From positions 602,995-666,994 of the forward strand of contig NZ_FNLC01000002.1 in NCBI RefSeq assembly GCF_900104065.1: a stretch of 64,000 nt of DNA, in the 5' to 3' direction. Position numbers and translations under genes: made by a program. Shown in pieces: positions 31,857 to 58,712 of the stretch. The notes under the pieces are model-generated. The model saw only the letters and a list, made by a program, of their open reading frames with translations, did not search any database and had not been told where the DNA came from. How positions within the stretch are numbered: position 1 is the first letter of the stretch; each line of letters opens with the position of its first letter. This DNA comes from Natronobacterium texcoconense. GTDB taxonomy: Archaea; Halobacteriota; Halobacteria; Halobacteriales; Natrialbaceae.

Positions 31857-32177
31857 ACAGAAACAGTGGCAATGCCAGATGATGGTCCTTTTCTTATCAG
31901 AATTTATTACACTCCAACGGAACGACCCCCGGTTTCCTCGATCAAATTTACGAACGGTTGGAGCAAGACCTTCCCGTTCGCCGTCGTTGTCGTTGGCTGG
32001 TTATTTCCCATCAGTGTATTCCATTAACTGCATGATAGTGCAAGAAGGACAAATGACACATAGCACGACTAACTCGGAGATCTTCAGTTGACCACCAACA
32101 ACTAGTCAACTGGGAGTCAATGATAGCGTTCACTCACGAGAAAGGCTGATTTTCTGTGGGGTCTTCGCCATAACCGT
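31857..32177. promoter_or_regulatory. AT-rich intergenic region, HNH gene promoter and end of the defence cluster
   Basis: About 320 bases. The half next to the HNH gene contains its AT-rich core promoter. The rest has repeated AACTAGT/ACTAG-type motifs around 32085-32115 (GTTGACCACCAACAACTAGTCAAC) that can fold back, which might end transcription of the methylase gene. No CDS supported. Confidence 0.35.
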
Positions 32178-34556: not shown

Positions 34557-34706
34557 GCTTGTGAAAATACAGTCATCTGTAATGGTACTTTTGATCGGCG
34601 ATGAATACCTTTGGAGAAGATCAGTCCTCAGGTAAGACTCACAAACATCTATGACTGATCGATGGCGCAGTAGTCACTCGGTTGCGGTGACCAAAGGTCC
34701 TAAATC

Positions 34707-39715: not shown

Positions 39716-39726
39716 GTTAGAAATGG

Positions 39727-41550
39727 TTATCGTGTGTGTTGGGGGTCCTGTGGCTGTGCTGTCGGATCGAGTTCCGGTAGGATTCGATCTGCATCTTTAT
39801 GCTCTCGGATAGGTTTAAATTCCGCGAGTCGGAGAAGAGGTTGTGGTAGCGTTGCTGTCCGACGTCGGCCAGTTCCTTTCTGCGGGTACACTTGCTTGAA
39901 AGCCTCTTCGACAGCGGCTGGAGAGTCATTATGTACGCGTGTGATGGTTTTTTGCCATCTCTTCACTTGGTCTGTTGAGCGGTCACCGTCTGTCCTGACC
40001 GAAATCACGAAGCCAGCTTCGATTAGTCCTCTGTAGAACGGGACTGCGGGTACGGCGTCCAGTCGACTCGCTGCTTGGGCGACACTCGACCAGGCTCGAT
40101 GGAGGGTGTCGGGCGACACGTACATATTCTGTTCTCCGGTGTCCATGACCGCAAGTTCTGTGAGGGAGCACAGTAGCCGGAACGTAGCAATAATCAGCGC
40201 TGTTCGGGCACTATATGAATCTAAATCCAAGTTCCAGAGATCACGGATCTCCGCATTGAGGTTATCGTCCCCGGAATCGATCGCAATGCTCAAAATTCGA
40301 TTCGTAGTCGTAAAGGCACCTTCGAAGACGGAATAATCGGCGTAAAACTCTGCTCTCCTCTCGTTTTCAAGGAGATCACGGTAAAATTCAATCTCAGTTG
40401 CGAGGAAGCGATAGTGGTCTTTTGACTCAATCTTTGCAGTTTCTCGGAGCTCCACAAGCGCGAAGTACCAGCTCATCAGTGCGAGTTCCGCAGACACTGA
40501 TGTTTCCGGATCATCCGTAAGTATCGTCCGGAACCCTTCGTGACAAAGCTGGACGACCTCTTTCGACCCATATTCCAGCCCGTGTTCGTGAGTTACTCTA
40601 AGCTGCTTGAGACACATTAGTGCCGCATCTTCTTCATCCGATTCATGTGCCTTGCAAGCGAGTTCCGGAATAAATTCCACTAGTAGTGGACGGAAAAGCG
40701 ATTCTCCCGATAGGTTCGTTTCATCGGGTAGTTCAACCAGTTCGTTGTTGCACTCTACGACGTCATCTTCTCGAACATCGCTTGCCTGAGTCGTGTCCAC
40801 CTCTCGAATCAGGGGAAGGTTCGCGGTCTGAGTCCGATCAATAGTCTGGGTACTGGACGGCTTCCCGAGCTTAGTATCAAGGACTGACCGAGTGATCTCT
40901 TCGGCTTTCGTCGTCATTACTTCGACTCCGTTCGACCAGGTCGAATTCGAGCCGTCATCAATCTGGGAACACAGAAACTCGTGAAATCCCCGTAGTGGGT
41001 TCTCATCAATACGTCGGGACTCTCTCGTATTCCGTATTTCACTGAGATATTTGTCCGTAGTAATCCTGGTTTTGTAGGCAGCGATGACTCCTGACGGTGT
41101 CGCAAGCGTCAGGGAACGTATGGCGTACTCTGCAACAGCAGCAAAGCTCACGCCTGCTAGGACGATCATTGAGGCGGCTGTCGCAAGCCGTAGCGTTGGG
41201 GGGACTAGATCTGATACGACGAGTACTACTGCATTAATAAAGAGCGAAATACCGACTACGATCAGTGTCAGTTGGAGGTGGCGGTTTTCCGTGAATAGCC
41301 AGGTGAGTCTCGGTGAGTATTGGGGACTCGTCAACTGCACGCCGACATATGTGAGTGAAAATACAATCGCAACAACACTCGCCTGACTTGTGAACAGTAC
41401 ATCTGCGAGTGTCCCGGGAGCGTTTGCCGAGATAATCGGCCCATTGTACTTTGCAACCTTCCAACCGACCAGCGAGACCAACGCAAGGAGAGCCGCACCT
41501 ATCCCGAAAATAGGGCTTATCTCACCAATCCGCTCATTCCAACCCGTCAC
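39727..41550 (-). CDS. DUF2254-like membrane protein within the defence cluster
   Basis: 607 residues. Four hydrophobic helices fill the first 165 residues (IGAALLALVSLVGWKVA, VVAIVFSLTYVGVQLTSP, LTLIVVGISLFINAVVLVV, MIVLAGVSFAAVAEYAI). The segment TSQASVVAIVFSLTYVGVQL then SPQYSPRL matches the start of DUF2254 proteins. The remaining 440 residues are soluble, mostly helical and cytoplasmic. It lies 11 bases upstream of the DrmA-like helicase gene and has its own TATA-like ATATTTATTAACG about 35 bases before the ATG. It is not a known DISARM component; an anchoring or abortive-infection role is only a guess. Confidence 0.75.
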   Translation of the reverse strand: MTGWNERIGEISPIFGIGAALLALVSLVGWKVAKYNGPIISANAPGTLADVLFTSQASVVAIVFSLTYVGVQLTSPQYSPRLTWLFTENRHLQLTLIVVGISLFINAVVLVVSDLVPPTLRLATAASMIVLAGVSFAAVAEYAIRSLTLATPSGVIAAYKTRITTDKYLSEIRNTRESRRIDENPLRGFHEFLCSQIDDGSNSTWSNGVEVMTTKAEEITRSVLDTKLGKPSSTQTIDRTQTANLPLIREVDTTQASDVREDDVVECNNELVELPDETNLSGESLFRPLLVEFIPELACKAHESDEEDAALMCLKQLRVTHEHGLEYGSKEVVQLCHEGFRTILTDDPETSVSAELALMSWYFALVELRETAKIESKDHYRFLATEIEFYRDLLENERRAEFYADYSVFEGAFTTTNRILSIAIDSGDDNLNAEIRDLWNLDLDSYSARTALIIATFRLLCSLTELAVMDTGEQNMYVSPDTLHRAWSSVAQAASRLDAVPAVPFYRGLIEAGFVISVRTDGDRSTDQVKRWQKTITRVHNDSPAAVEEAFKQVYPQKGTGRRRTATLPQPLLRLAEFKPIREHKDADRILPELDPTAQPQDPQHTR

Positions 41551-41701
41551 CGAGATATAGCACCGTTTGAAATACTCGTTAATAAATATTGGAGTGATCC
41601 CGATGATTGAGTGCAGGCGTACTGCTTGCTAGCGAATTTATAATCAAAATTCGGTCGGATCTGAATCGGATCAACGCAGTAATTTTCGAGGCTTTACCTC
41701 G
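41551..41701 (-). promoter_or_regulatory. Internal promoter region of the defence cluster
   Basis: About 150 AT-rich bases between the 1763-aa gene and the DUF2254-like gene. On the minus strand it carries ATTATAAATTC and, nearer the ATG, ATATTTATTAACG, both good haloarchaeal TATA boxes. The second part of the cluster can therefore be transcribed separately. Confidence 0.5.
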
Positions 41702-44700
41702 TTAGATTGTCCGGAGCTTCTCAGCTACTTCTGTCGGCGACTCGATACTGAAGTAGCGATACCCCAACCGCAGCAGCCGCTGCCGTTTCTCTTCGTCCTG
41801 CTGGGCGACGTGCTCTTTGTCGTGGTCCGGGCCGTCGACGAAAACTACGACCGGCTGTGGACGGGAGTCATCATCGTAGTAAAAGTCAGCTTGGACCACT
41901 GGCTCATCGCCGTCATAGATCGTCTCCTGTGCACGATCCGGTAGCGGGTAGCCTTCGTCTCGGATCGCCGCCAGAACCTTCCGTTCCAGTTCGGATTCAC
42001 AGGCCTGTTGTAGGGCCCCAAAGCGATCTTCGTCACCACCATCAGTGAGTGGCACTAGCGTCATGTCGCTCGCACCATACAGCCAGGGCATGACGAGTTC
42101 CCGATCGAACAGGGGGTGCTCCCGCTGATTGTAGAACGACATCAAACACTCGTAACAGGCTCGCTCACACCCATCAGGATCGTTCGCGTGTAGGACGTCG
42201 AGGGACTCCCGGATTGAGCGTGCGAATCGATCCTTTTCAGGGTTAGTCAATTCATGCAGGGCACCGGCCCCACCCTCGCTGGTTTCGTGCATGACGATGG
42301 TCATCGCCCGCTCTGATTCTGGAGCGGGCTTGATGAATGTCGCGAGCTCTTCCTCATCGAGGTCAAACTCGACGAGTACCCCCTGATAGAGTGTTTCCTT
42401 GAGGGTTCGGAAGAATGACTCTGCCTGATCATTATCAATGTCGCCAGGGAGGGGCGTAGTCAGAGTAACCGTATCGTGATTTCCATCCGTGTACAACTCA
42501 ATTCCCTCACGAATCGCCTCCATATCGGCGTTTGCGTAGCACTTCCCGTCGACGTGTTCTTCGATTTGATGATGACTTGTGAGCCAGCGCTTACACTCGG
42601 TACATAGGGCAAATCCTTGGAGTTCGTCATCGTCGCGGCCTCTGATGCCACTATTAACTGTGACGATCCGTGCATTTGGCTCGTAGGTTACCTGGGCTGA
42701 GACGCCATCGCCGTCGAGCTCGTAGATATGGGGCTGCCGCTGTTCGTAGTAGCGAGAGATCTCATATCCTTCGCGGCGGCGCTCTTCGTCATCACTGGTG
42801 ATGTTCTCCTCTGGTTGGGCGCGCATATCCGGCAACGCCATCGTACTCGGGTTGGTGTGAATACCGCTGAATGACTCACCACAGGTAGGGCACCCGGCGG
42901 CCTCCTGGGCGTCGTCGCCCATCAGAATCGTCTCACAGGCCGGACAGACGATTTTGTGCCGGGTGACAGGCTCGGAGTCGCGGGTCTTCGGGCGGGCGTA
43001 TTTGATGCCGTGGCGCTCGCCACGATAGTAGACGCTATTTCCAGGGGCGAACTCACGAATGGCCCGGGTCTCGTCGCGCTGGATATCGTCCTCCATTGTA
43101 GTGAATCCGAGCGTACAACTCGATCGTGGGAATCCGTAATTGGGAAGGAAGCCCTGTGAGCGGAGATACTGGTAGGAGTAGAATCGACGGCCACCATCTC
43201 GCATATCTTCGAGTCGGCGCTCGATCGCATCGCGCTCGCGGCGTTCAAGATACTCACCACTCTGGGCCTCGAGTTTCTTATTCAGTCGGCGGAGTTCACG
43301 CGTAAGACGTGTGTATTCGATGCGCCAGGCCTCGAAGGCGTCATCGAGGGCGTCAACGAATCCGTCAACCTGAGACTCGATGAACTCGTCGGTAAACCAC
43401 TCCTGGTAGTCCTCGCGTTCTCGTTCTCGCGCAAAGGAACTCTTAACGGCCGCAATGATCTCGCCCCGATGGGACCGGACTGCCTCCCTGAGGTCCTTTC
43501 GGTAGCTCTCGATGATCTCGTAGTCACCGTTGGACTCGATATCTAGGATCTGCTTGATCTTCCCATAGAACTTGAAGTCGATAACCTCGAGGACGAGTGC
43601 GTTGATGTGGGCCTCGATCAGATCACGGTTGTTGAGCAGGAACGTCGGTGGCGATATCTCCCCAGCGATGATCCGCTGTGGTCGCTGATAGAAATACTGG
43701 TCATGGGATGCGCGCCCGAACCCGCTGCCACAGAACGTCGTCACCAGCGAGGGTTGGTCCTGTCGACCGGCTCGGCCCGACCGCTGGGCGTAGTTGCTCG
43801 GGTTCGGTGGGACGTTGCGCATGAACACGTTTGAGAGATCACCGATGTCGATCCCGAGTTCCATTGTGGGCGTACAGACGATTGTATTGAGGTCGTCTCC
43901 CTCGCGGAACCGAGTCTCGAGCTCTTTGCGGATATCACCCTCAATCTGGCCACTGTGTTCCGCTGCGAAGATGTCGACCGCTCGGTCGAAGGACTTCGTG
44001 TATAGGTCGTGGAAGTAGGAATCCTGCAGATCAGTGTCTTCGGGCGTGACGTTGCCACAGCTACTGTTCAGACACATCTTCAGGTTCTTCCGAGTGACGA
44101 CCGTCTTGCATTTTGGACAGACGGAGACATCGCTCGCGTCGTGCGCCACCAGCCGGACGAAACTCGGATTAAGCATATACGCCTGTCGCCCCCGATAGAC
44201 GTTATCTTCGACTAAAAGTGGGAGTTTGTCGGGGTCCTTCAGGAGATCACGGACCGCTTCGACGATCTCGATGGCGCGATCGACATCGACGTCAAATGCG
44301 CGTGTGGTCCATTTAACGTGACGAGACCGGCGGTTGGTGAAGCGATGAATTTGTTGGGTGTTACTAGTGTTGGCGGTGTCGCTGAATCCCTCGGGGAAGC
44401 GGAAGTACTGCTGCTTGTGGAACATTGCTTCATCATCGAGGGTGTTGATCGTGTTCCGACGGAAATCCCCGAAGTTGGTGAAGATCTCGTGATTAATCGC
44501 CCCCGTGCGACGGAACAGGTCGAGATAGCCTTTGCAATACTCATGTCGAACCGCTGGATCTGCATCGGCAAGCTCAGGAATGTCCTCCCACTGCTCGTCT
44601 AGTTCGGCGAGTTGATCGAGGTTTTCGTACTCGACATCGAGCAAACCGACATCTTCGAGGCTCTGTTGTCCACGCTGTTGGCTCTTCTGCAGCTCCAAGA

Positions 44701-46993
44701 GGACGTGGAACTGCAGATACTCACTGAAGCGGGCCTTTTCGTCATCTGGGACCCCGAACATCGTCGTCTGGAGGGCGTCGGGAAGTACGTCCTGTTCGTC
44801 GAGCACGTCGAAGGTCCGATTTCCGATATTCGAGAGACTAATTCTATCACTACCGGTGAGAGCGTTGTACAGCGCACGTCGGAACTTAACTCGCTGGTAG
44901 AGGTTATTGACGTGGGCTGCCTGCAAGGCAGTGTCCTGCCGGTTGTCGCTGAAGGCGATCGTCTTCTGTTGGTCATCGGGGAGCTCCTGCATCGTCGATC
45001 CGATCAGGACGTCTGTCGCTGTCGACCGTCCGACCGTACCGAACTTGAACAGCTTCGAGAGCTCCATTGCCCGTCCCAATCGGGTGTGGCTCACCCCGCA
45101 GTTGCCACAGAAGAGGAACTCCGCTTGGCTCCACATTACCTCGAGGCCTTGACTCGCAAAGCAGCCACACGCCAGTTGGCCGCTCTCCCGGTGGCCGTCA
45201 GTCAGTCGGTTGTGTTCGGGACAGTACGTGGCCGGTTCTGGGACAGCATCTTCCCAAGTATCTCGGAGCTGGCCTTGGTCGTTGAACCAGTCGGCAGGTA
45301 GTGAGACTTCCTCGCGGTCCCAGTTGCCCCGCATAATGTAACCAGCAGTTTCACCATCGTCGACGCTGAGGTCGTCGACTTCTCGTTGTGTGAGATGACC
45401 TTCTTTGGACCGTGTTACCGTATAGTATTCCTGACCACAGGCCCGACAGAACGTCAGCGGGAACGCCTTGCGGCTACGGTCATACTCGTCGGCACAGTGT
45501 CGGCACTCGATGTCACCCGCGTCGCTGAGGTGTGGATTATCTTCATCGAATGCTTCTGGTGTGAGACAGGCAACGAGCCCAGAACCCTGTGAGAAGAACG
45601 AGTGTAATTTTGGAACGAAGATTGGCTGTTGTTCGCCTTGAACTTCCGTCGTCGCGACGGTACCGGCCAGCAGCGCTGCTTGAAGTTCCCGTTGTGCTTC
45701 GGCAGCGCTTACATCGGGGCGGTACTCATCCTGATAGTGTTCGACGAGAGTCAGTTCTTCGGCGGTATCGAGGTCGCCAGAGGGTTGGATCTGCTGGCTT
45801 TCGGCGCTCAGTTGCTCATCAAGGAATGAAACCGTGGGGTGGCTGAGAAGTACCTCGCCCAGTGCAGCCGCTGATTCCGTCTCCTCCCTGTGGAGAGAGC
45901 GGGCAGTGAGTCGCTCCGCGAGTTTCGTCGCTTCGTCGGCCGTACCGTCGAACCGGCGGATATCGTCTTCGGTGACTTCGACGGTATCAGGGAGGGATTC
46001 GCCACCGGTGAAGTGAATCGGGTAGTAAGTCTCTTCGATGACTCTTTCTGGTGGGACTTCAGAACCGAAGATTCGACCGGAGAACTCGGCAATCTCTTCT
46101 TCAGCTTCTCGGCCTTCCTCGTTTTGGACCGTAGCGGATGTCCCGATGCAGGTAAGCGAGTCGCCAGCATCCGTGTGTTCTCGGAGCCGGCGGATCAATG
46201 CGGCGACGTCGGCACCCTGATGGCCGGTGTAGGTGTGAATCTCGTCTAGAACGAGATACTCGAGTGCGCCAGCATGCTCTGGCGGGAAGAGGTCTTTGTC
46301 CTCGTGACGGGTGAGGATATAGTCAAGCATGACGTAGTTCGTCATCAGGATGTCCGGCGGGTCATCCTGCATCTCTTCGCGGGAGATCACTTCGCAGTCG
46401 TAAGGCTCCTTTCGGCCGAATTGCTGGAGGAATTCTGCCTCACTATCGGGGTTCGAGGGCGTGTCGCCCGTATAGAGGCCGAGTCGAAGTCCTGATTCGT
46501 CCAGACGCTCAGCAAACTCCTCGTACTGGGAGTTCGCCAGCGCGTTCATCGGGTAGACGATCACTGCCTTGACGCCCTCTTCGCCGCGGGCTTTGGCGTC
46601 GAGGCAATGGGAAACGATCGGAATCCCGAAGGCGAAGCTCTTCCCGGAGCCTGTCCCCGTCGAGACGATCGTGTTGCCCTCTTCGATTGCGTCGATCGCT
46701 TGGGACTGGTGTTTGTACGGCTCGATCGGATTGCCGTCATCGTCGTCGAAGACACTGAGAACGCCAGGGTGGAGACGTTCGTCTTCGACGAATTCGGTAA
46801 GAGGACGTCCGTACTCGAAACGCTGATTCAGTTCGACGAAGGGTTCCTTCCAAAGGACTTTGCCGTCCTGAATACGCGAATCTATCCAGGACTCGATGGT
46901 CTCATCTTCGACGTTTTGGAACGTTTCGACGTAGTTTCGGTATGAATCCTGAACCGTGTCCAATGAATCGAAGGGGTTAAGGGATGAGGACAT
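41702..46993 (-). CDS. Giant helicase-DUF1998-nuclease-like fusion protein (MrfA/DrmAB type)
   Basis: 1763 residues. An SF2 helicase with Walker A STGTGSGKSFAFG (about 109), DEIH in LVLDEIHTYTGHQG (about 247), SAT in CIGTSATVQ, and QRSGRAGRQ (about 1067). Between and after these are at least five Cys-rich zinc modules (CRHC...CRAC, CGNCG, CPKC, CPAC...CPTCG, CTEC). A DUF1998/MZB region near 1570-1625 ends in ERACYECLMSF. The last 95 residues match a Vsr/DUF559-like nuclease fold (VQADFYYDDD, VVVFVDGPDHDKEH, QRLLRLGYRYFSI), although the usual Glu before V-D-G is Phe. It would unwind and possibly cut foreign DNA. It starts 9 bases after the TBP-like gene. Confidence 0.8.
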   Translation of the reverse strand: MSSSLNPFDSLDTVQDSYRNYVETFQNVEDETIESWIDSRIQDGKVLWKEPFVELNQRFEYGRPLTEFVEDERLHPGVLSVFDDDDGNPIEPYKHQSQAIDAIEEGNTIVSTGTGSGKSFAFGIPIVSHCLDAKARGEEGVKAVIVYPMNALANSQYEEFAERLDESGLRLGLYTGDTPSNPDSEAEFLQQFGRKEPYDCEVISREEMQDDPPDILMTNYVMLDYILTRHEDKDLFPPEHAGALEYLVLDEIHTYTGHQGADVAALIRRLREHTDAGDSLTCIGTSATVQNEEGREAEEEIAEFSGRIFGSEVPPERVIEETYYPIHFTGGESLPDTVEVTEDDIRRFDGTADEATKLAERLTARSLHREETESAAALGEVLLSHPTVSFLDEQLSAESQQIQPSGDLDTAEELTLVEHYQDEYRPDVSAAEAQRELQAALLAGTVATTEVQGEQQPIFVPKLHSFFSQGSGLVACLTPEAFDEDNPHLSDAGDIECRHCADEYDRSRKAFPLTFCRACGQEYYTVTRSKEGHLTQREVDDLSVDDGETAGYIMRGNWDREEVSLPADWFNDQGQLRDTWEDAVPEPATYCPEHNRLTDGHRESGQLACGCFASQGLEVMWSQAEFLFCGNCGVSHTRLGRAMELSKLFKFGTVGRSTATDVLIGSTMQELPDDQQKTIAFSDNRQDTALQAAHVNNLYQRVKFRRALYNALTGSDRISLSNIGNRTFDVLDEQDVLPDALQTTMFGVPDDEKARFSEYLQFHVLLELQKSQQRGQQSLEDVGLLDVEYENLDQLAELDEQWEDIPELADADPAVRHEYCKGYLDLFRRTGAINHEIFTNFGDFRRNTINTLDDEAMFHKQQYFRFPEGFSDTANTSNTQQIHRFTNRRSRHVKWTTRAFDVDVDRAIEIVEAVRDLLKDPDKLPLLVEDNVYRGRQAYMLNPSFVRLVAHDASDVSVCPKCKTVVTRKNLKMCLNSSCGNVTPEDTDLQDSYFHDLYTKSFDRAVDIFAAEHSGQIEGDIRKELETRFREGDDLNTIVCTPTMELGIDIGDLSNVFMRNVPPNPSNYAQRSGRAGRQDQPSLVTTFCGSGFGRASHDQYFYQRPQRIIAGEISPPTFLLNNRDLIEAHINALVLEVIDFKFYGKIKQILDIESNGDYEIIESYRKDLREAVRSHRGEIIAAVKSSFAREREREDYQEWFTDEFIESQVDGFVDALDDAFEAWRIEYTRLTRELRRLNKKLEAQSGEYLERRERDAIERRLEDMRDGGRRFYSYQYLRSQGFLPNYGFPRSSCTLGFTTMEDDIQRDETRAIREFAPGNSVYYRGERHGIKYARPKTRDSEPVTRHKIVCPACETILMGDDAQEAAGCPTCGESFSGIHTNPSTMALPDMRAQPEENITSDDEERRREGYEISRYYEQRQPHIYELDGDGVSAQVTYEPNARIVTVNSGIRGRDDDELQGFALCTECKRWLTSHHQIEEHVDGKCYANADMEAIREGIELYTDGNHDTVTLTTPLPGDIDNDQAESFFRTLKETLYQGVLVEFDLDEEELATFIKPAPESERAMTIVMHETSEGGAGALHELTNPEKDRFARSIRESLDVLHANDPDGCERACYECLMSFYNQREHPLFDRELVMPWLYGASDMTLVPLTDGGDEDRFGALQQACESELERKVLAAIRDEGYPLPDRAQETIYDGDEPVVQADFYYDDDSRPQPVVVFVDGPDHDKEHVAQQDEEKRQRLLRLGYRYFSIESPTEVAEKLRTI

Positions 46994-47002
46994 TTGACTG
47001 TA

Positions 47003-47548
47003 TTAATTCGATATGTCTCTGCTAATACTCTCTACTTCTGAGAGAATTTCCTCAATATCAGGGAATAAGTCTGTCGTCTTAATTCCCTGTATCATCACCG
47101 TACCGCTGTTGAATATCGTGCATGTGCATTCCACGTCTTCAACCCTCAATATAATGGCAGGAAATTGTTCCGGTTCGTACTCTACGTTATGTCCCTGTTC
47201 CTGGAGGAATTCAAAGAGATCTTCCAGCGAGGAATATAAGTCAATGTTTGCTCTCGCAGCAATGTTAATCGTAGAAGGAGATTCTACAACTATAGAACTT
47301 ATCCCACTCTGGGAGAGTCGTTCTCTTAATCTATTGAGTATTTCATCCGCCTCTTCCGTTGATTTGCATCCGAAGAGTTGTATCATTCGCTCTTTATTGT
47401 CACCGATGATGTTCAGCTTGATATTTGAATTCGGGACAGAATATGATAGACCGCTTGTGTTTGGTGAAAACATTTCGAGCTGTCTCAAACTCAGTGTGTC
47501 CACTCTGATGGTGGCCTGATGCACCATAGACTGGACCACGATGTTCAT
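47003..47548 (-). CDS. TATA-binding-protein-fold protein within the defence operon
   Basis: 181 residues, the length of an archaeal TBP. The second half matches TBP repeat 2: NIAARANIDLYSSLEDL, then NVEYEPEQFPAIILRVED (about 121-138) and CTIFNSGTVMIQGIK (143-157). VEYEPEQFP is identical, from memory, to the haloarchaeal TBP motif. The two phenylalanines that TBP uses to kink DNA (FP and IF positions, F129 and F146) are kept. Repeat 1 is worn (NIKLNIIGDNKERMIQLFGCKS then ADEILNRLRERL), without the E-P-E-Q-F-P. Its ATG overlaps the methylase TGA (ATGA) and the giant helicase starts 9 bases after it. A role in self-recognition or operon control is inferred. Confidence 0.75.
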   Translation of the reverse strand: MNIVVQSMVHQATIRVDTLSLRQLEMFSPNTSGLSYSVPNSNIKLNIIGDNKERMIQLFGCKSTEEADEILNRLRERLSQSGISSIVVESPSTINIAARANIDLYSSLEDLFEFLQEQGHNVEYEPEQFPAIILRVEDVECTCTIFNSGTVMIQGIKTTDLFPDIEEILSEVESISRDISN

Positions 47549-50500
47549 ACCATACTCATACGATCAAATTTGTCCAGAGCTTTCTCCATCGAGTGGTACC
47601 GCCCCAACTCGTTGATCTCTCTTTCCTTGAGGATATCAAACTCTTCCATAATGAAGGAGAATTCGTTCTTGCTTATCCCATAAATCTTTGCGACTATTGC
47701 CTCTATGGTGGCTCTATTCTCAAATCTCTCATCTTCATTCCACTCATATACCGAATCACTGAAGTCAAATTCCTCTCCGAAGGCATTGAGGGAGTGTGAT
47801 GTCCAAATCAGAGGCACCACATTTTCTACAAGTAATTGATATGCCGATTTTGACTTGCCATCTATTTTGATAGTCGACTTTTTCAATACTTCCGGCGTGG
47901 GCATTGGTAATTGCTTTACAACGTACTTCGTTACATTTGCACCACTCAATGACGAGCGCAATGCAAAGTCAAATACGAAACTAGTAAATATCGACGTGAA
48001 TACGGCTGCATGCTCGTGAGTTGGGTCATCGGGATCAAAGGTCAAAACCGGTACGCTATGTCCATGCGGTTCTTGCGGAGTTATCGTTCCAATCGTTGTC
48101 CGGAAGTCGGTGTGTGATCTAGCTACGTTACGGAACGCAAATACCCATCCCTGATCATGGTCTAGGTAGCTAGTTTCCTCTTTGAAGTCTTTCTCTTGAA
48201 CCCAATATCGAGGTAATACTTCCTTTTTTGGGTCTTTCTTTTCGGTTCCAGACAGCTTGTACGTCTCAGCTTTCCGACCGTACTTAGTTTCCTCACTTAC
48301 GTTTTCAAATGTTCCAAACCGGTGGTCCAGCTGACTAATAAACTTCCCTTCATATAATGGTCTGTATATTGTCTCGTCACCCACAAACCGGTTCCGGTCG
48401 TCTAACTCAAGTCCTTGTTCGCGAAGAGACACTATTGTATTGTCTGCAAACAAATCATCATCATTCGACATATGGAACATCGTGTGGTATTCTATATCCC
48501 AGGTGTTCCGGCCACTGTCTTCGTCTATTAGAATTGGGTGGGATCGATAAATCTGCATAGCGATATCCCGCGTTCTTTCATCTTTGAAGGTTGGACACGT
48601 CAATGTATTTGGATTGACTGTTTTGAAGTCCTCTGACGTTAGTCGGAAGTGTCCTTTGCCTGAACGGAGCTCTTCAACAGTTTGATTATGGAAGGAGAAG
48701 TCACCGACTGCTTCCAATTGAACTCCACAAATTGTGAGTAGACAGAATCGTTCGTTCTTTTCCACATCCTCGAAGAAACCGTCTGTGTTTTCAAAGTCAT
48801 AGAGCCTATCAATGCGCCCTTTGGAAGCATATTCTCCAAACAGGTGACGTGTATGGTAGTCCGTCGCGATCCCAGTTTTGACAAGCAGTCCACTTCGTCC
48901 TTTGGTGCTAGAGAGGTAATCCGCACCTAGTTCAGTAAAGATGGGGTAGGTGTTCAGATCGCCGACTGCTGAGAGATTGAATCTCCCCGAGTTCCTGAGG
49001 AAGGAGGTCATATTATCCGCTCGCTCCGTTGCATCTTGCCATGCTTTGTATAGCTCCGGCTCCGACTCAGATAGCTCCTTAATCAGCTTGTTTCGTTTTG
49101 TCGTCGACTCCTCGGTGGCAATTTCATTATTCCTTCCCAAGAACCACTCCCGCTGTGATATCTTCGGTTTTTCCCAAGGTGGATTGCCGATAATACAGTC
49201 AAAACCACGATCCCCTGTCAAGAAAACAGACGGGAACTCTAGTTCCCAATGGAAGAATTTCTCCTGGGCGGCAATTTCACTAGAGTACTCTCTGAGGGCA
49301 CTAAGTTCATCACTGTCCGGATTCCGTTGTAGCTTTTCTAGCGAAGAGGGGGTTGGATATTCTGGAATAGACCCGTCCATAGGCCAATAGAACGCTGCTG
49401 CCCAGGTATCATATAACAATTTCTTATTTTGGAACCAATCAGTTTCCCGAATCTCATTGAATTGTTCTTGTTTCTGTTCCACCCCTGCAGCGGTGGATTC
49501 TGCCATCTTATCTAGCTCTTCTGCCAAGTCAATGATCGAATCTCCCGCTGCCGAAAACCCACTTAAGGAACGATCATTCTCCCCCCTATTTCTATCCTTA
49601 TTCTCATTTCGCACTCGCTTACGAACCTCGTTCCCGTCATGCCAGTCGCGTCCACCTGAGGTATCATAAGCATCGACAGGGAAATCTCCTTCAAACATCT
49701 CTTCATTCACTCCTATCAATGCATTGCCACACCGGATATGATGATCGAGAAAGTTGAGAGGCTTATCTCTTACAGCAGAGTTGATCCAGAGGCTGACTTT
49801 GGCCAGTTCGACGGCCATCGGATTGAGATCGACCCCATAAATACAGTGCTGAAGAACATCCCTGCGTGCCTCTCGTATCTCCTCTGACGGTGGATATTCA
49901 TCGCCGGTGCGAATCGTAGCGAGCCGGTCTGCTAGCGCATTGTTAGCTGCTACTAAAAACGCGGCGCTACCACATGCCGGATCACACACATCGAGGTTTA
50001 GAAGTGCGTGCTCTTTCTCTTCGGGAGAGGTTGCTTCTTTTAGGCGTTCATCTAGGACCGGTAGCAATGTTCCCTCAATAAGCTCGTTTACTAGCCCCGG
50101 ATCGGTATAGTAACTCCCTGTTTCTTTCCTCTCCGTGCTAACAGAGGAAAGATAAAATTCTCCTTGCTGAACCTGTTTGCCATCCTCGTTCGTGAAGGGC
50201 GCTTCCGCCACTTCTGGCTGGAATTCGAGTAGACTCTCGTATACCGATCCAATCTCCTCGACTCCTAGGTCTGCATATGAAATCCGCTGGGGGACACCCT
50301 CTCTATGGACGATTGTCAGTAGCTCGACCGCTTCCAATAGCGCGTCATTAGTGCAAACTTGTTCGTCCAGAAATGAGAATTCTTCATCGTCGAATAGCAC
50401 TCCGTTGTAACACGGAACATTCAGCTCTTTGTTACCTTTCTCAACCAGGTCGAAGGTTGCTTCCAACCCTCGCCATAAGTCCGTGTTGTGGTCCGTGCTT

Positions 50501-51555
50501 TTCCGCCGAGTTGTGGCACGCTCTCGGAGACGAGAGATGGAGTATTCCTCCGAATAGAGCGTGTCCCGTCCAGCAAGCATGCCACGCTGTTCGGCATATA
50601 GCAAGAAGAGTAGTCGGTATACGACGAAGAGCAGATCTTCATAATATTTCTCCTGGGCCTGGGTGCTATCCAGTTTCCCGCGAAGATCGTCACTGGACTC
50701 GATAAATCCATTGCCGAGAACTTCGATGGCGTCTATAACGTTCTGCTGCAGGTCCTGGCCAATTTTGACCCCACTTGCGATAGCGACTTGGTATAGCTGT
50801 TCCAGCAAAATTCCTTCCTGTTCACCACCTCTCCTAGACTCAAAGCGAGAGACATGGCAGAGGCGATAGAGTGCTCTAAAGTCACCATAGTTCCGATTGG
50901 TGAAGATATTTTCGAGGTCAAATTCGATGTACCCTCGGGTGTATGTGTGGTAATACGTCCGGAGGAGCCGAAGTTTCAAGCCATCGGTGACCAATCCCCA
51001 CTCCGTATCTGCGGCATTCAAATACCGCTGCAGCTCATCATGCGGACTTCGTCCGCTTGCACGAGTCCCATCGTGGTTCCCACTGTCTAGAGGCTCGTCT
51101 TTGTCGGGACGAACGAGATGCGTTACTGGGGGGTGGTTATCATCCCGGGTGCGACCTAGTTGCGAAGATGGACTCCAACCTAGGTGAGATAGATTCGCTT
51201 CAATTCCATCCGCACTCAGGTTCTGTTGCTGATAAACCGGGTCGAACCCGAGGGTCTCTAATAGAGGGAGAATCCACTCTTTGCGGGCCTCAGTCGTATC
51301 GAGCGAATAGACCTCATTGCTGCCTGAAATCGAATCCCATTGCTCCTTGAGGTTTTCCCAAGCCTGGCTAATCTCTGTTTCCAGTTCCGTAGCTGATGAC
51401 GGGCCTTCACCATCGTATGAGAATGTATTCGGCTGGACGGCATCTTCGCTTGTCCGTTCTTTGCGAAGCTTCCGAATTAGCTGATCGGTAAGGATACCTC
51501 CACTTGTTTCGATAAAGCTCGTTTCGTCCCTGATCCGCTGTAGTTGCTGGCTCAT
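47545..51555 (-). CDS. drmMI: Large Eco57I/PglX-type adenine methyltransferase with restriction-like N-terminus (DrmMI-like)
   Basis: 1336 residues. Residues 1-40 hold a motif shared with the neighbouring 112-aa protein (DETSFIETSGGILTDQLIRK). Residues 100-250 resemble the N-terminal region of type IIG enzymes (RSPHDELQRYLNAADTEWGL, TDGLKLRLLRTYYHT). The methylase core has YYTDPGLVNELIEGTLLP, SAM motif DPACGSAAFLVAAN (about 525) and catalytic NPPWEKPKIS (about 788). The C-terminal 350 residues are the likely target-recognition domain. It would mark host adenines; DISARM class 1 has such an enzyme. Codon use here is strikingly AT-rich. It overlaps both neighbours by 4 bases. PglX of BREX is an alternative family, but no PglZ is present. 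Confidence 0.8.
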   Translation of the reverse strand: MSQQLQRIRDETSFIETSGGILTDQLIRKLRKERTSEDAVQPNTFSYDGEGPSSATELETEISQAWENLKEQWDSISGSNEVYSLDTTEARKEWILPLLETLGFDPVYQQQNLSADGIEANLSHLGWSPSSQLGRTRDDNHPPVTHLVRPDKDEPLDSGNHDGTRASGRSPHDELQRYLNAADTEWGLVTDGLKLRLLRTYYHTYTRGYIEFDLENIFTNRNYGDFRALYRLCHVSRFESRRGGEQEGILLEQLYQVAIASGVKIGQDLQQNVIDAIEVLGNGFIESSDDLRGKLDSTQAQEKYYEDLLFVVYRLLFLLYAEQRGMLAGRDTLYSEEYSISRLRERATTRRKSTDHNTDLWRGLEATFDLVEKGNKELNVPCYNGVLFDDEEFSFLDEQVCTNDALLEAVELLTIVHREGVPQRISYADLGVEEIGSVYESLLEFQPEVAEAPFTNEDGKQVQQGEFYLSSVSTERKETGSYYTDPGLVNELIEGTLLPVLDERLKEATSPEEKEHALLNLDVCDPACGSAAFLVAANNALADRLATIRTGDEYPPSEEIREARRDVLQHCIYGVDLNPMAVELAKVSLWINSAVRDKPLNFLDHHIRCGNALIGVNEEMFEGDFPVDAYDTSGGRDWHDGNEVRKRVRNENKDRNRGENDRSLSGFSAAGDSIIDLAEELDKMAESTAAGVEQKQEQFNEIRETDWFQNKKLLYDTWAAAFYWPMDGSIPEYPTPSSLEKLQRNPDSDELSALREYSSEIAAQEKFFHWELEFPSVFLTGDRGFDCIIGNPPWEKPKISQREWFLGRNNEIATEESTTKRNKLIKELSESEPELYKAWQDATERADNMTSFLRNSGRFNLSAVGDLNTYPIFTELGADYLSSTKGRSGLLVKTGIATDYHTRHLFGEYASKGRIDRLYDFENTDGFFEDVEKNERFCLLTICGVQLEAVGDFSFHNQTVEELRSGKGHFRLTSEDFKTVNPNTLTCPTFKDERTRDIAMQIYRSHPILIDEDSGRNTWDIEYHTMFHMSNDDDLFADNTIVSLREQGLELDDRNRFVGDETIYRPLYEGKFISQLDHRFGTFENVSEETKYGRKAETYKLSGTEKKDPKKEVLPRYWVQEKDFKEETSYLDHDQGWVFAFRNVARSHTDFRTTIGTITPQEPHGHSVPVLTFDPDDPTHEHAAVFTSIFTSFVFDFALRSSLSGANVTKYVVKQLPMPTPEVLKKSTIKIDGKSKSAYQLLVENVVPLIWTSHSLNAFGEEFDFSDSVYEWNEDERFENRATIEAIVAKIYGISKNEFSFIMEEFDILKEREINELGRYHSMEKALDKFDRMSMV

Positions 51556-51890
51556 TTCTGAATCACCTCGGTCGCTGTCGTGATGTCGTCTTCCATTGTT
51601 TCGAATCGTCCCTTAATCTCATCGAGCGTTCGATAGTGGCTGTACTTCTCGAGTTCCTCATCCCGGATCTGTTCGAAAGAGTCAAACAGCCGCTCGAAGT
51701 CATCGGCGTCGATGCCGTCGACATGCGCCATGAGGGCCTCCAGTTCGGAGGTACTCAGTTTAACGGCGTCTTCGCTGCAGCCTTCCTCTCTGAGCTTATA
51801 GATGAGCTGCTCGGTCAGCAGGCCGACGCTGGTTTCGATGAAACTCGTCTCTCTCTGTTGAGGCCGTCCCGCAGTGGATTCCGTACTCAT
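51552..51890 (-). CDS. Small helical protein sharing its N-terminal motif with the adjacent methylase
   Basis: 112 residues, all helical, acidic. Residues 13-42 (QRETSFIETSVGLLTEQLIY and KLREEGCSEDAV) repeat the N-terminus of the next gene's product (DETSFIETSGGILTDQLIRK and KLRKERTSEDAV) at about 60% identity. After this, LSTSELEALMAHVDG...FERLFDSFEQIRDEELEKY continues as coiled helices. Four-base overlaps with the SNF2 gene upstream and the methylase gene downstream imply tight co-translation. No known function; a docking or adaptor role for a common partner is inferred. Confidence 0.75.
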   Translation of the reverse strand: MSTESTAGRPQQRETSFIETSVGLLTEQLIYKLREEGCSEDAVKLSTSELEALMAHVDGIDADDFERLFDSFEQIRDEELEKYSHYRTLDEIKGRFETMEDDITTATEVIQK

Positions 51891-54736
51891 TGTGAAGGGT
51901 AGTTGAGTCCGATCGTCAGCAGGTCTCGACTCGCCACAGAGAGGTTATCGATACCGGTCATCGACTCTCCATAGCCGGCCTCTTGAAGCGACTCACGCAT
52001 CTCTCTCCGTTCGGCTTCGATCTCGCTGCGCCGCTGATCAGCTTGGTCACGAATAGCATCCTCGAGTGAGTCGTGATTGACAGCTTGCTCGAGGTCTCGC
52101 CGCCACTCCTCTTCAGTCCGGTTCGCAGCGGTACTCTCGGCGTCTTGGAGTGTCTCTAGTTCCTCAGCGGAGAGGGGCTTGTCGCCGTATAGCGGGAGTC
52201 CCAACTGGACGAGTTCCTCCATGACGGTGGGTTCGTCTCCTGTATGGGCGAAATAACGGATTTTGTACGTGTACACTGCCGTCGGCGCGTCGACGGCGTC
52301 GGTTCCACGCATCGCGGTGCGGCCGTACCGATCATCGCTAGTGAGGGCGACCTCTTTGACCGACTCGATCAGGCGCTGGACGAGTGGGTGGGCGATGTCC
52401 AGCATCTCGGCGTCATCGTCTTCCGCTGCTCGGTTGGGTTCAAAGGTCACTCGTTCGTAGTGATCTTCGACGTCTCGACCCCGGAGTTCGTCTGTGGTGA
52501 TCTCGATCTCGTAGGTGCCGTCGGCGTTCATGGAGCGATCGCAGTCGAACAAATCAAGTCCGCTGTTGACGAACTCCTTGAGGGCATCAGGTCCGCCCAG
52601 CATTTTCTGTGTCTTGTCCCGCCGCTCCTTGACCTCCGAGAGGTCGACCTCTGTGTGGTTGTAGAAGGACTCGTCTTTGATCCGATCAAGGAGCTCGTCG
52701 TCGAACGCGCTCTCCTCAACGACATCCTGCCCATCGTCAGTGAAGTCCTGGAGCGTGTACTGGGGCATGATGTGCTGGATTTCGTCGTCGTCCAGCAACT
52801 GAAGGACCCCTTCATCGTCGCCGAGATACGGCGGCGAGAATCCGTACTCGCTCCGGATCTCCTGGGCCTTCTTGATCAACTTGGTAAGGACGGTCCGGTC
52901 CATCGGATCGTTGACAACCATTGTCCGGATATAGACGGTCTCCGCCTTCTGGCCGTAGCGGTCAACACGACCGTTGCGCTGTTCCAGCCGGTTCGGATTC
53001 CACGGGAGTTCGTAGTGGATGACCTGGTTTGCGGCGTATTGGAGGTTCATCCCCTCGCTGATAACATCTGTTGCAATGAGCACGCCACGCTCGGCATCGG
53101 CGAACTCCTGAAACCGTTCGTTACGTTCGGCCTCGCCAAGTTCGCCGTAGAGCGTATGGACGCTGACCCGATCGCCGAACTCGTCACGGACGTGTTCTTC
53201 GAGGTACTCCAGTGTGTCCACGTATTTCGTGAAGATGATCGTCCCGCCGCTGTTGAATCGGGCCGGGAGGGTCTGGTCGAGCAGCTGCTGGAGTTTGCTG
53301 TCACGGGTTTTCGTGATGCGTTCGGCTGCCTCGAGGGTTTCCTCGAGTGTTTCCAGCTCGATTTCAATCGCATGTCGGTCTCCAGTGACGACCCGTTCGA
53401 CACGTTCCCCAAGTTCAGTTTCAGAGTATTCCTCACCAGGGTCACTGTCCAATGCGTTCGCCTGGGCCATCTCTTCGGAGATTCCAGCAGTCTCCTCAAT
53501 CACATCGTCATCGGACTCGAGTTCATTGAGACGATCGGTGAGCTTGTCCTTCCGGTTGCGTAGCGACCGGCGCAGTGCTTCGGGACTTGAAAGGGCTCGC
53601 TTGAGGAAGTGGATGACGGTCCACTGGGCGAGTGTGCGGTTATCGGAGTGCTTGGCTGCTTCGACCAGTGCATCCCCGTAGTCTCGGACAGCGTCGTATG
53701 TGGTCGTCTCGTAGTCGGTTGGGTCTACATCGACCGTTTGCTGATCACGGTCCGGGAACGGGTTTTCGTCGTCGTCACCGAACCACTCTTCAACGTCTTC
53801 CCGTCGCCGCTGGACGACGTGGCGCTTTGCGATCTCGCGGTTGATCTGTGGGTCATGCAGGTCCCCTGAGACGATGTCTGGGTTGACCATATTCAGCAGG
53901 CTCGCGTAGCTGTCGGTGTACCCGTTATGCGGCGTCGCGGTCAGCAGGAGAGCATGCGTTGACGCGTCCGTGATATCTTGGGCGAACTCCCACCGCTGTT
54001 TCGAGGGGCTCACAGTCGCGGACACCGTGTGCGGACGGGCCGCCTGGTGGGCTTCGTCGATGATAACCATGTCCCAGTCCTGGCTCAGGATCTGGTTCCG
54101 GATGTGAGACTGCTTAGCGTAGTCGATCGAGACGATATGCTTCGAGTAGTAATCCCAGACACTGGTTCCCGGCGGAACATCTTTTTCCATTGCTTTCCGA
54201 CTCCGGCGGTCGGTGATCTGGGCGTTGATGTGGAAGAAATGTTCAAAGGTCTCTCGCCACTGGTCACGTAGGTTCGCCGGTGTGACGATCAGGATGCGGT
54301 CGGCCCGATTCCGTGCCAGCAACTCGCTGGTGATCAGCCCTGCTTCGATCGTCTTCCCAAGCCCAACGTCGTCAGCCAGTAGCAGGCGTACCTCGGGCAT
54401 GTCTAGGGCCATGACGACCGGTGTCAGCTGGTACTCGGTGGGAATCACTCGCGAGCGCTGGAGGCTCATCAGTGGAGCTGTCCCATGCAGCATCGACAGC
54501 CGGTTAGACTGAATTAGGAGATCCTGGAACTGCGGGTTCCCCATGCGGTCGATACCCGGTGCGGGTAGGCTGCCCTTCTCGATATTTTCAATGGGGGCGT
54601 AGAAACGGTGGGTCGTGGTCGGGCCGTCAAGTGCCGTCGCAGCGACTACCTGCCCGTCGACGCCGTCGACACGCCAGAGACGATTCCGGTTCCGGATGAC
54701 CTCGCCCGGCAGGAGATTGCTCGTGTCCACACTCAT
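51887..54736 (-). CDS. drmD: SNF2-family helicase, DrmD-like
   Basis: 949 residues. Motifs of SNF2/RapA-like translocases: LLADDVGLGKTIEAGLI (Walker A about 121), VIIDEAHQAARP (DEAH about 225), LLTATPHNGYTDS, then in lobe 2 IIFTKYVDTLEYLEEHV, GVLIATDVISEGMNLQYA and LEQRNGRVDRYGQKAET (motif VI about 584). A long helical C-terminus (700-949) follows. A preceding SH3-like segment (PGEVIRNRNRLWRVDGV) starts the protein. DISARM class 1 begins with such a gene, and here it is the first gene of the cluster. TATA-like TTTATAAG lies about 80 bases upstream. Confidence 0.85.
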   Translation of the reverse strand: MSVDTSNLLPGEVIRNRNRLWRVDGVDGQVVAATALDGPTTTHRFYAPIENIEKGSLPAPGIDRMGNPQFQDLLIQSNRLSMLHGTAPLMSLQRSRVIPTEYQLTPVVMALDMPEVRLLLADDVGLGKTIEAGLITSELLARNRADRILIVTPANLRDQWRETFEHFFHINAQITDRRSRKAMEKDVPPGTSVWDYYSKHIVSIDYAKQSHIRNQILSQDWDMVIIDEAHQAARPHTVSATVSPSKQRWEFAQDITDASTHALLLTATPHNGYTDSYASLLNMVNPDIVSGDLHDPQINREIAKRHVVQRRREDVEEWFGDDDENPFPDRDQQTVDVDPTDYETTTYDAVRDYGDALVEAAKHSDNRTLAQWTVIHFLKRALSSPEALRRSLRNRKDKLTDRLNELESDDDVIEETAGISEEMAQANALDSDPGEEYSETELGERVERVVTGDRHAIEIELETLEETLEAAERITKTRDSKLQQLLDQTLPARFNSGGTIIFTKYVDTLEYLEEHVRDEFGDRVSVHTLYGELGEAERNERFQEFADAERGVLIATDVISEGMNLQYAANQVIHYELPWNPNRLEQRNGRVDRYGQKAETVYIRTMVVNDPMDRTVLTKLIKKAQEIRSEYGFSPPYLGDDEGVLQLLDDDEIQHIMPQYTLQDFTDDGQDVVEESAFDDELLDRIKDESFYNHTEVDLSEVKERRDKTQKMLGGPDALKEFVNSGLDLFDCDRSMNADGTYEIEITTDELRGRDVEDHYERVTFEPNRAAEDDDAEMLDIAHPLVQRLIESVKEVALTSDDRYGRTAMRGTDAVDAPTAVYTYKIRYFAHTGDEPTVMEELVQLGLPLYGDKPLSAEELETLQDAESTAANRTEEEWRRDLEQAVNHDSLEDAIRDQADQRRSEIEAERREMRESLQEAGYGESMTGIDNLSVASRDLLTIGLNYPSQ

Positions 54737-54916
54737 ACTGTGTCACGCTCAGCAGTGGTGAGAGAATTCTGGAGCATCTGTGGGATTAGAGGGAAATGTA
54801 AACGCAAGTACTTATAAATTGTCCTGTTCCTACACGATAACCTGGAGACGGGATCGTGGGTAATCGTCTAGTCAGCAGAGGTGAATTTATAAGCCTTGAC
54901 ACCACCTCTGTATGCA
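54737..54916. promoter_or_regulatory. Divergent promoter between the DISARM-like cluster and mcrBC
   Basis: 180 bases. Leftward: CAATTTATAAGTAC on the minus strand (54809-54822), about 75 bases before the SNF2 ATG. Rightward: GAATTTATAAGCC (54882-54894), with its TATA core about 26-30 bases before the ATG at 54917, so the mcrB transcript is probably leaderless. The two boxes share the ATTTATAAG core. Confidence 0.6.
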
Positions 54917-57442: not shown

Positions 57443-57449
57443 CGGTCCC

Positions 57450-58712
57450 ATGTCGATCCCTGTTCCGCGCGACGAGACCGAGATCGCCGCCGATATTGAG
57501 CTCGGAGAGTACGAGGAATCCGATCCAATCGAGCTGGGCGAGCAGGCCGCGCGGATGCTGACCCATGATGTCAACGGAGGGTCAGATCGAGATGGAGATC
57601 GTATCAAGCTGTGGTATACCCGGGATGGAAAAGCAGTCCTCAAAGCGACCCAGTACGTCGGCATCGTCTCACTTCCGGATGGTCCAGTTATCCAGGTTCG
57701 TCCGAAAGCTGCGGGAACGAACCTGTTGTATTTGCTCCAGTATGCACAGGATACGACGCCGACGACCTTTGCGTCAGAGACGCCATTCCAGCGAGGACCA
57801 ACGTTTCTCGACGCGTTTGGGGCGTTGTTCGAGGCCGAACTCCGGGACGTATTAAATCGGGGTCTGCGGACCGATTATCGGCGTGTTGATAATACAGAAT
57901 CCCATCTTCGTGGACAGTTGAACGTCCAGCAGCAGCTCCAGCGGCATCCTCCAACCCCGACGAAGTTCGAGTGTACTTACGACGAACTCACGCACGACAC
58001 AACAGCCAATCAGGCCATTCTTTACGCGACGTCGGTGTTGCTCGGGATCGTATCCGATCAATCGATCACTCAGGCTCTTCGACAGCACCAACAATTGCTT
58101 CGGCGACGAGTTGAACTGATACCCGTCACGAGTGCCGAGCTCGATGGAATTCAATTAACGCGGCTTTCTGAACACTATGAGGATATCCTCCGGTTATCTC
58201 GGTTGGTGATCAAGAATGCGTTTGTCTCGGAGTTGACTACTGGGAGTAGCACGTCCTTCTCGTTGCTGGTAAACATGAATACCGTATTCGAAAACGCTAT
58301 CGAGCGAGCTGTCACCACCGTTGCGGAGCAGCGGGGATGGACGGTCAAACCGCAGGAGAAGACCCAATCCCTGTTGACTCGCGGCAAGCACAATGTGACG
58401 CTTAAACCCGACGTGACCATCTATGAAGGTGAACGGCCGCTTATCGTCGGTGATGCAAAATGGAAGACCGACACGCCCTCAAATAGTGATTACTACCAGC
58501 TCACGTCATACATGCTAGGGCGAGATACTCCGGGAATACTGTTCTACCCCAATTGTGACGGGAAGAATACGACGACAGCAGAGGTCGCTAGGCAGTTCCC
58601 GCTCGAAATCGTTGAATTGCCGACGGCCGCTGCCGTCGACGGATTCGACGAGTTCGTTGAGCAGTTCGAGGATGCTGTTGGAATGGCAATTGATTCTATC
58701 CTTGAATATTAG
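57450..58712 (+). CDS. mcrC: McrC-type nuclease subunit
   Basis: 420 residues from the ATG at 57450 (MSIPVPRDETEI). Its middle is helical with the N-terminal McrC pattern (GPVIQVRPKAAGTNLLYLL, FEAELRDVLNRGL, SHLRGQLNVQQQL). The C-terminal domain carries the PD-(D/E)XK site: LKPDVTIYEGERPLIVGDAK (about 318-337) followed by YYQLTSYML. McrC supplies nuclease activity to the McrB hexamer. The start codon is 7 bases after the mcrB stop. The longer upstream frame runs through mcrB out of phase and is not used. Confidence 0.85.
   Translation: MSIPVPRDETEIAADIELGEYEESDPIELGEQAARMLTHDVNGGSDRDGDRIKLWYTRDGKAVLKATQYVGIVSLPDGPVIQVRPKAAGTNLLYLLQYAQDTTPTTFASETPFQRGPTFLDAFGALFEAELRDVLNRGLRTDYRRVDNTESHLRGQLNVQQQLQRHPPTPTKFECTYDELTHDTTANQAILYATSVLLGIVSDQSITQALRQHQQLLRRRVELIPVTSAELDGIQLTRLSEHYEDILRLSRLVIKNAFVSELTTGSSTSFSLLVNMNTVFENAIERAVTTVAEQRGWTVKPQEKTQSLLTRGKHNVTLKPDVTIYEGERPLIVGDAKWKTDTPSNSDYYQLTSYMLGRDTPGILFYPNCDGKNTTTAEVARQFPLEIVELPTAAAVDGFDEFVEQFEDAVGMAIDSILEY

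Follow-up and report, generated by a model that had tools for sequence, protein, structure and literature searches.

A TATA-binding-protein paralogue linked to DNA-modification defence genes in haloarchaea is a candidate dedicated transcription factor

A gene inside a defence operon of Natronobacterium texcoconense encodes a protein with the fold of the TATA-binding protein (TBP), and its relatives, a family that we call TBPd, adjoin DNA-modification genes of several otherwise different systems. On balance we lean towards the view that TBPd is a specialised TBP paralogue which serves as a dedicated transcription factor of the linked DNA-modification defence module, and not as a nuclease subunit. 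In the 64,000-nucleotide stretch of DNA analysed here (the window), the gene is probably a private switch for its defence genes, drawn from the most altered TBP branch.

Results

A TBP-fold gene inside a defence operon

The plus-strand frame from position 47003 is full of stop codons, and the open reading frame 47003-47548 is real on the minus strand only (Table 1). The first-pass annotation had assigned a TBP fold to its product and listed the motifs NVEYEPEQFP and TIFNSGTVMIQGIKT, both of which are present. The fold was borne out by Pfam, by Foldseek and by an AlphaFold2 model, which gave the two-repeat saddle. The Pfam TBP model (PF00352) matched residues 95-160, that is repeat 2 only, with 58.4 bits (cut-off 22.9), and TBP chains from the PDB matched the protein in phmmer at E 2e-18. 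In the AlphaFold2 model (11-row alignment; pLDDT 90.7, pTM 0.76) the order of strands and helices was the repeated TBP order. All 44 of the 44 Foldseek matches at E <= 0.001 were TBPs or TBP-containing fusions, and VIA-align paired 169 residues with the M. jannaschii TBP (2z8u) at Z 18.1 and 2.3 A, the first non-TBP chain following at Z 6.7. The best score against the NCBIfam TATA-box-binding-protein equivalogs was 64.7 bits, below the cut-off of 181. Since a separate canonical TBP is encoded in the same genome (C3:443445-443966), the window gene is an extra paralogue.

In the alignment, both DNA-kinking phenylalanines of repeat 2 are retained, as had been proposed. Repeat 1, which had been described as eroded, is indeed degenerate, and the change is stronger than that word implies: its stirrup is deleted together with the phenylalanine. 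The close packing of the gene in a defence operon was also correctly read, with an overlap of 4 nt with the methylase gene and a distance of 9 nt to the helicase gene, a placement suited to co-expression. The window gene is apparently co-expressed with the rest of the operon, from a promoter that seems to carry an ordinary TATA-like box.

Table 1. Features of the window operon and its exchanged segment (positions in the window).
Feature	Position	Strand	Remarks and basis
DruE/YprA-like giant helicase, 1763 aa, MZB (MrfA Zn-binding) domain	41702..46993	minus	ARMADA ArmC position; PADLOC, Pfam
Exchanged cassette, methylase + TBPd	46995..51549		Breaks colinearity with sister locus L190; identity of flanks 83-85%; G+C down to 42%
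TBPd gene, 181 aa, TBP fold	47003..47548	minus	Start codon overlaps methylase stop; repeat 1 without stirrup, repeat 2 with intact YEPEQFP stirrup
PglX/DrmMI-like adenine DNA methyltransferase, 1336 aa	47545..51555	minus	ARMADA ArmB position; PADLOC, Pfam
112-aa remnant of previous methylase, start joined to end	51552..51890	minus	Comparison with L190
SNF2/RapA-like helicase, DrmD/BrxHII-like, 949 aa	51887..54736	minus	ARMADA ArmA position; PADLOC, NCBIfam
Candidate TATA-like element AATTTATAAG, operon promoter	54811..54820	minus	About 75 nt before SNF2 start; by eye only

The host operon resembles ARMADA type I

Read from its 5' end, the operon consists of the SNF2 helicase, the remnant ORF, the methylase, TBPd and the giant helicase. 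It had been called DISARM-like in the first-pass annotation, and this label had to be replaced. The best PADLOC matches of the SNF2 helicase, the methylase and the giant helicase were DrmD, DrmMI and DruE, respectively. Matches of the giant helicase to DrmA were far below those to DruE, neither DrmB nor DrmC turned up when the eight operon proteins were compared with PADLOC, and the NCBIfam DrmD model scored 449 bits against the SNF2 helicase, below its cut-off of 610. A DISARM identity was rejected on these grounds. Archaeal ARMADA type I has been described as, in this order, a BrxHII/RapA-like helicase, a PglX-like methylase and a YprA-like helicase (Bell et al. 2025, PMC12458937), and by predicted gene set and order the window operon matches it, with TBP as an optional extra gene. 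TBPd occurs in 3 of 14 loci of this kind, and a fourth holds a different TBP; across the 13 genomes examined with this methylase family, the operons of the remaining nine are without any TBP. At the C-terminus of the giant helicase a DF..VVVFVDG..H..D..K..L..GYR pattern is visible by eye, and no sequence match to a Vsr-type nuclease was found there in the PDB or Pfam.

Comparison with the sister locus L190 revealed an exchange at the site of the TBPd gene. The DNA of the two loci is 83% identical over 37767-46994 and 85% identical over 51762-58000, and the intervening span is replaced. In this cassette the G+C content drops to 42%, from 56-58% in the surrounding DNA. The L190 methylase is 45% identical (protein) to that of the window, and its operon holds no TBP gene. 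As the span was replaced between conserved flanks, methylase and TBPd arrived as one unit. In the 112-aa ORF, positions 51550-51747 match the end of the old methylase and those from 51762 onward its start; judged by this alignment, the ORF is what remained of that enzyme when the cassette exchange removed its middle.

Further defence-related genes surround the operon. Divergent from the SNF2 gene lies a gene for an McrB-like protein of 848 aa (54896-57442, plus strand; NCBIfam McrB 133 bits, under the cut-off). ORFs of 843-868 aa are divergent at the same place in the sister loci L183-L185, L187, L188 and L190, so that ARMADA operons of this type may move together with an McrBC-like unit. Downstream, at 30870-41550 (minus strand), lies what looks like a further modification-based defence module. 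Its genes encode an HNH protein, another methylase of 792 aa, a protein of 697 aa that matches no family, a DpdJ-like DEAD helicase of 972 aa and a DUF2254 membrane protein; this helicase and the DUF2254 protein are also found beside L190.

TBPd is a rare family that adjoins DNA-modification genes

The family comprises the window protein and 10 relatives, that is 11 copies in about 440 haloarchaeal genomes. In a search of 391 genomes of the class, the 10 relatives matched near full length at E 1e-28 to 1e-20; other TBPs began at about 1e-11 and matched over partial length only, with the exception of TBP-like genes adjoining one of these relatives. In an 11-member profile search TBPd copies scored at least 246 bits and the next protein 83. 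By these scores, TBPd is a rare family separated from ordinary TBPs by a wide gap. Genus-wide searches around two carriers gave no further TBPd (2/32 and 3/52 genomes), and a scan of named genomes gave a single one, in Salinarchaeum laminariae R26, the remainder being ordinary TBPs. No clear TBPd was found on viral contigs and none in plasmid records.

DNA-modification genes adjoin all 11 copies. Two relatives are part of BREX loci, between pglX and pglZ (L036, L039), four are at type I restriction-modification (R-M) loci (L038, L040, L041 and L043, of which L041 was assigned by its L038-like gene layout), one is next to a type IIG enzyme (L035), one next to a lone methylase (L034), and two are in the same ARMADA-like operon as in the window (L037, L042). 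Against the reservation that homologues might never be next to defence genes, 10 out of 10 adjoin them. At 8 of the 11 loci TBPd is antisense to the modification gene or operon next to it, in a tail-to-tail arrangement; it is co-directional in the window, L040 and L043.

Most haloarchaeal BREX loci are without TBPd, and the slot between pglX and pglZ may hold a protein of 172 or 353 aa or an SMC/RecF-like ATPase, or may be empty. The smaller of the two proteins is conserved at 172-176 aa (L219:4173-4691, L220:4014-4544, L223:3999-4517), has no Pfam match and by eye looks like an EVE/PUA-type reader of modified DNA; brxU of pEFER is located between brxC and pglX (PMC8565348). Some defence loci have two or three different TBP-fold genes close together (L042:8986-10953, L037:9484-10470, L288:5940-10511), including a half-length, single-repeat TBP of 101 aa (L037:10165-10470).

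A second TBP clade is also linked to methylases

Other TBPs beside these systems (at L034, L042 with two copies, L182, L217, L218 and L227) grouped together in the tree with a support of 98/98, apart from the housekeeping TBPs. From this grouping it was predicted blindly that an unexamined clade member in genome G185 should adjoin a methylase, and the genes around it, retrieved only then, formed a type IIG-like methylase operon. A clade profile was searched against 292 genomes, from which 20 new matches and 20 canonical TBP loci were taken, and later 20 loci of further paralogues. Of the 20 new matches, 18 had a DNA methylase at a distance of up to about 6 kb, as had all four paralogue loci that fell inside the clade. 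The total is 22 of 24 loci that had not been used for clade definition, against 0 of 37 canonical or other TBPs (Fisher p about 1e-14, a value that overstates the case because some loci are related). According to PADLOC the less obvious clade neighbours were methylases as well, including two MADS-like mad2 genes. The two exceptions were L274, next to a BrxHII-like helicase, and L285, and in a 104-row tree no methylase-linked locus fell in the housekeeping branch.

A divergent placement relative to a methylase or R-M gene, which is a usual layout for a regulator, is seen for 6-7 of the second-clade genes. Named examples of the clade are found with BREX in Haloarcula halophila and with type I in Halobacterium sp. 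DL1. On pNRC100 of Halobacterium NRC-1, a methylase gene (interrupted by an insertion sequence), a SNF2-like helicase gene and a TBP gene lie in a row as an operon, and this TBP (VNG_RS12735) is of the methylase-linked type by similarity. An IMG/VR contig carries a second-clade-like TBP, 53% identical to that of L227, directly after a IIG-like methylase (L130:4701-8004), so that viruses or proviruses may carry such a pair as well.

The TFB-contacting surface is kept and the DNA face is changed

Residue positions are given here in yeast TBP numbers, which we take to be those of the published TBP-DNA and TBP-TFIIB structures, and the repeat-2 stirrup is presumably the TFB-contacting surface. Its residues E186, P187, E188, Q189 and F190 are kept in 11/11 TBPd proteins, in 33-35 of 35 second-clade proteins and in 39/39 housekeeping TBPs. 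The repeat-1 stirrup is deleted in every one of the 11 TBPd proteins, and the canonical kinking phenylalanine is thus absent there. On the DNA face of repeat 2, V203 is replaced by T and T215 by Q in 11/11 TBPd proteins and V161 by A in 10/11, with N159 and F207 (F or Y) being kept. Housekeeping TBPs are invariant at these positions, and the second clade has V161 in 34/35 proteins and retains V203 and T215 in roughly two thirds of them. A low dN together with saturated dS points to purifying selection.

Most TBPd genes have a private promoter box

At the TATA position of their own promoter, 7 of the 8 antisense TBPd genes have a GCAAAAGASTCAGGT-like box, with a form like (G)CAAAAGASTCAGGT; two copies begin CGCAAGA. 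Relative to the probable start codon, the 13-bp core of this box spans -40 to -28 in 3 loci and is within 4 nt of that in 4, which corresponds roughly to the BRE/TATA slot of leaderless haloarchaeal genes. The core was 92% conserved, versus 50% and 54% in the flanks and 45% expected at random. With two pattern forms searched in 15 genomes, there was one match per carrier (7/7, at the TBPd gene) and one elsewhere, in G285. A genome-wide box regulon was rejected, the box having one copy per genome. It is absent from the 3 co-directional TBPd copies, including that of the window. A locus scan with up to 2 mismatches did not find it at methylase or effector promoters and lends no support to a role as an element of these promoters. 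Second-clade genes with their own promoter often have TATA-like sequences, such as ATTATATAG, as judged by eye. The presence of a TATA-less box upstream of the only TBPs that have a uniformly changed DNA floor is consistent with an altered specificity, in which TBPd would bind the box.

Another sequence, AATGYACTATAGA, is common to two different methylase promoters (L034:6698-6710, L035:13587-13599), and both methylases have a TBPd neighbour. It is positioned 9-23 nt before the start codon, occurs nowhere else in 334 loci, and is possibly an operator.

Discussion

In the mechanism that we favour, TBPd retains the surface by which TBP recruits TFB and has changed residues facing the DNA, and because that surface is kept it could still nucleate or block an initiation complex. 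Most relatives are single genes antisense to the modification genes, with a promoter in which the private GCAAAAGASTCAGGT-like box takes the place of BRE and TATA. The simplest model is one of self-regulation at the box, through which TBPd might dose the modification and effector genes linked to it. As the box is missing at methylase promoters, this control could run via antisense transcription into the methylase, via competition for TFB, or via an unrecognised site. In this view the window copy has lost its own promoter, and its translation is coupled to that of the methylase, its companion in the exchanged cassette. The idea of operon control by a TBP-fold protein, raised in the first-pass annotation, thereby gains support as a possibility. 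Several observations count against a regulator: the box is missing at methylase and effector promoters and in the window copy, TBPd is dispensable (9 genomes have the same operon type without a TBP, as most BREX loci are without TBPd), and the tail-to-tail placement is less typical of regulators than a divergent one. We also considered, as a tentative and rather doubtful extension, that TBPd is a TBP dedicated to immunity whose core-promoter specificity has changed. Together with TFB it would build an alternative initiation complex on the non-TATA element CAAAAGASTCAGG, found once per genome and upstream of the TBPd gene itself, and archaeal R-M, BREX and ARMADA modules would thereby have a private transcription switch.

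The overlap of the TBPd and methylase genes in the window, their joint movement, and the fact that TBPd tracks methylases and not nucleases would be expected if TBPd were a structural subunit of a methylase or effector complex, in which the TBP saddle bends DNA or tells self from non-self. However, the partners are unrelated enzymes (HsdM, PglX, IIG and DrmMI-like), and we lowered our estimate for this reason. In addition, the majority of copies are antisense and have a promoter of their own, closely related operons function without TBPd, and an invariant TFB stirrup would have no reason in a subunit, so that we regard this explanation as unlikely. The narrower earlier proposal of a subunit of one DISARM-like system does not hold, as the relatives are spread over BREX, type I, type IIG and ARMADA loci, where most of them are encoded opposite to their neighbours and have a promoter of their own. 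The combination of a TFB surface, a changed DNA surface, a private promoter and a tie to modification genes whatever the nuclease is better fitted by a local transcription factor than by a complex subunit.

The deletion of the repeat-1 stirrup next to a preserved TFB stirrup also suits a protein that has lost half of its DNA saddle and sequesters TFB, halting transcription as an infection response or as an addiction module. Yet the second clade retains most of its DNA-binding residues, an unsystematic look identified no candidate antidote gene, and a stable private promoter suggests regulated constitutive use; we think that such a trap is quite improbable. Least probable in our estimate, if narrowly so, is that methylase-adjacent slots are merely insertion hot spots, where TBP genes drift in and out with no functional tie to their neighbours. 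The changing contents of the BREX pglX-pglZ slot described above would agree with this, but two separate TBP clades share the same kind of neighbour across many system types while the 37 other TBPs never have it, the proteins are conserved, and the private box is kept.

Haloarchaea are already known to have TBP paralogues that can steer subsets of genes: Halobacterium NRC-1 has tbpA-F, and deletion of tbpD changes hundreds of transcripts (PMC2121645). Like these haloarchaeal paralogues, TBPd has the TBP fold and the TFB stirrup and occurs as an extra copy beside a housekeeping TBP. Unlike TBPd, which is without the repeat-1 stirrup and has altered DNA-floor residues, the housekeeping and other haloarchaeal TBPs keep both stirrups and had no DNA methylase nearby in any of 37 cases. 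The first-pass annotation held that a TBP fold had not been described as a defence subunit. The TOTE and TALON conflict systems already carry TBP genes (PMC12458937, citing Aravind et al. 2022), so the TBP fold as such is not new to defence. These systems resemble the window in having a TBP-fold gene inside an antiviral cluster, and TALON in addition has an ARMADA-like YprA helicase. As described there, their TBPs are bacterial and accompanied by a TPR-CSD protein (in TALON also by a NERD nuclease), whereas the haloarchaeal TBPs here track DNA methylases of many systems. A Pfam scan found neither a TPR-CSD protein nor a NERD nuclease among the eight operon proteins.

A further likeness is to the controller (C) proteins of restriction systems and to BrxR, and lies in the proposed job, that of a small regulator gene beside a modification gene, acting at its own promoter. 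Their folds (HTH, WYL) are unrelated to that of TBPd, for which autoregulation is the predicted behaviour, and the window protein is not a small helix-turn-helix C protein, its fold by Pfam and Foldseek being that of TBP. A literature search confined to freely accessible papers, on TBP together with DISARM, BREX or restriction-modification in haloarchaea, gave no report of the methylase link and does not prove priority.

To our knowledge, the timing of modification versus attack arms in archaeal R-M, BREX and ARMADA systems is largely unexplored, and we know of no archaeal counterpart of the bacterial C proteins and BrxR. The methylase-linked TBP clade (22 of the 24 tested loci) is a concrete candidate regulator in many haloarchaea, and it offers a reason why there are many TBP genes per haloarchaeon. 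TBPd itself would be a TBP in which a new DNA code could be put to the test, and the same arrangement is present on pNRC100 of the genetically tractable Halobacterium NRC-1.
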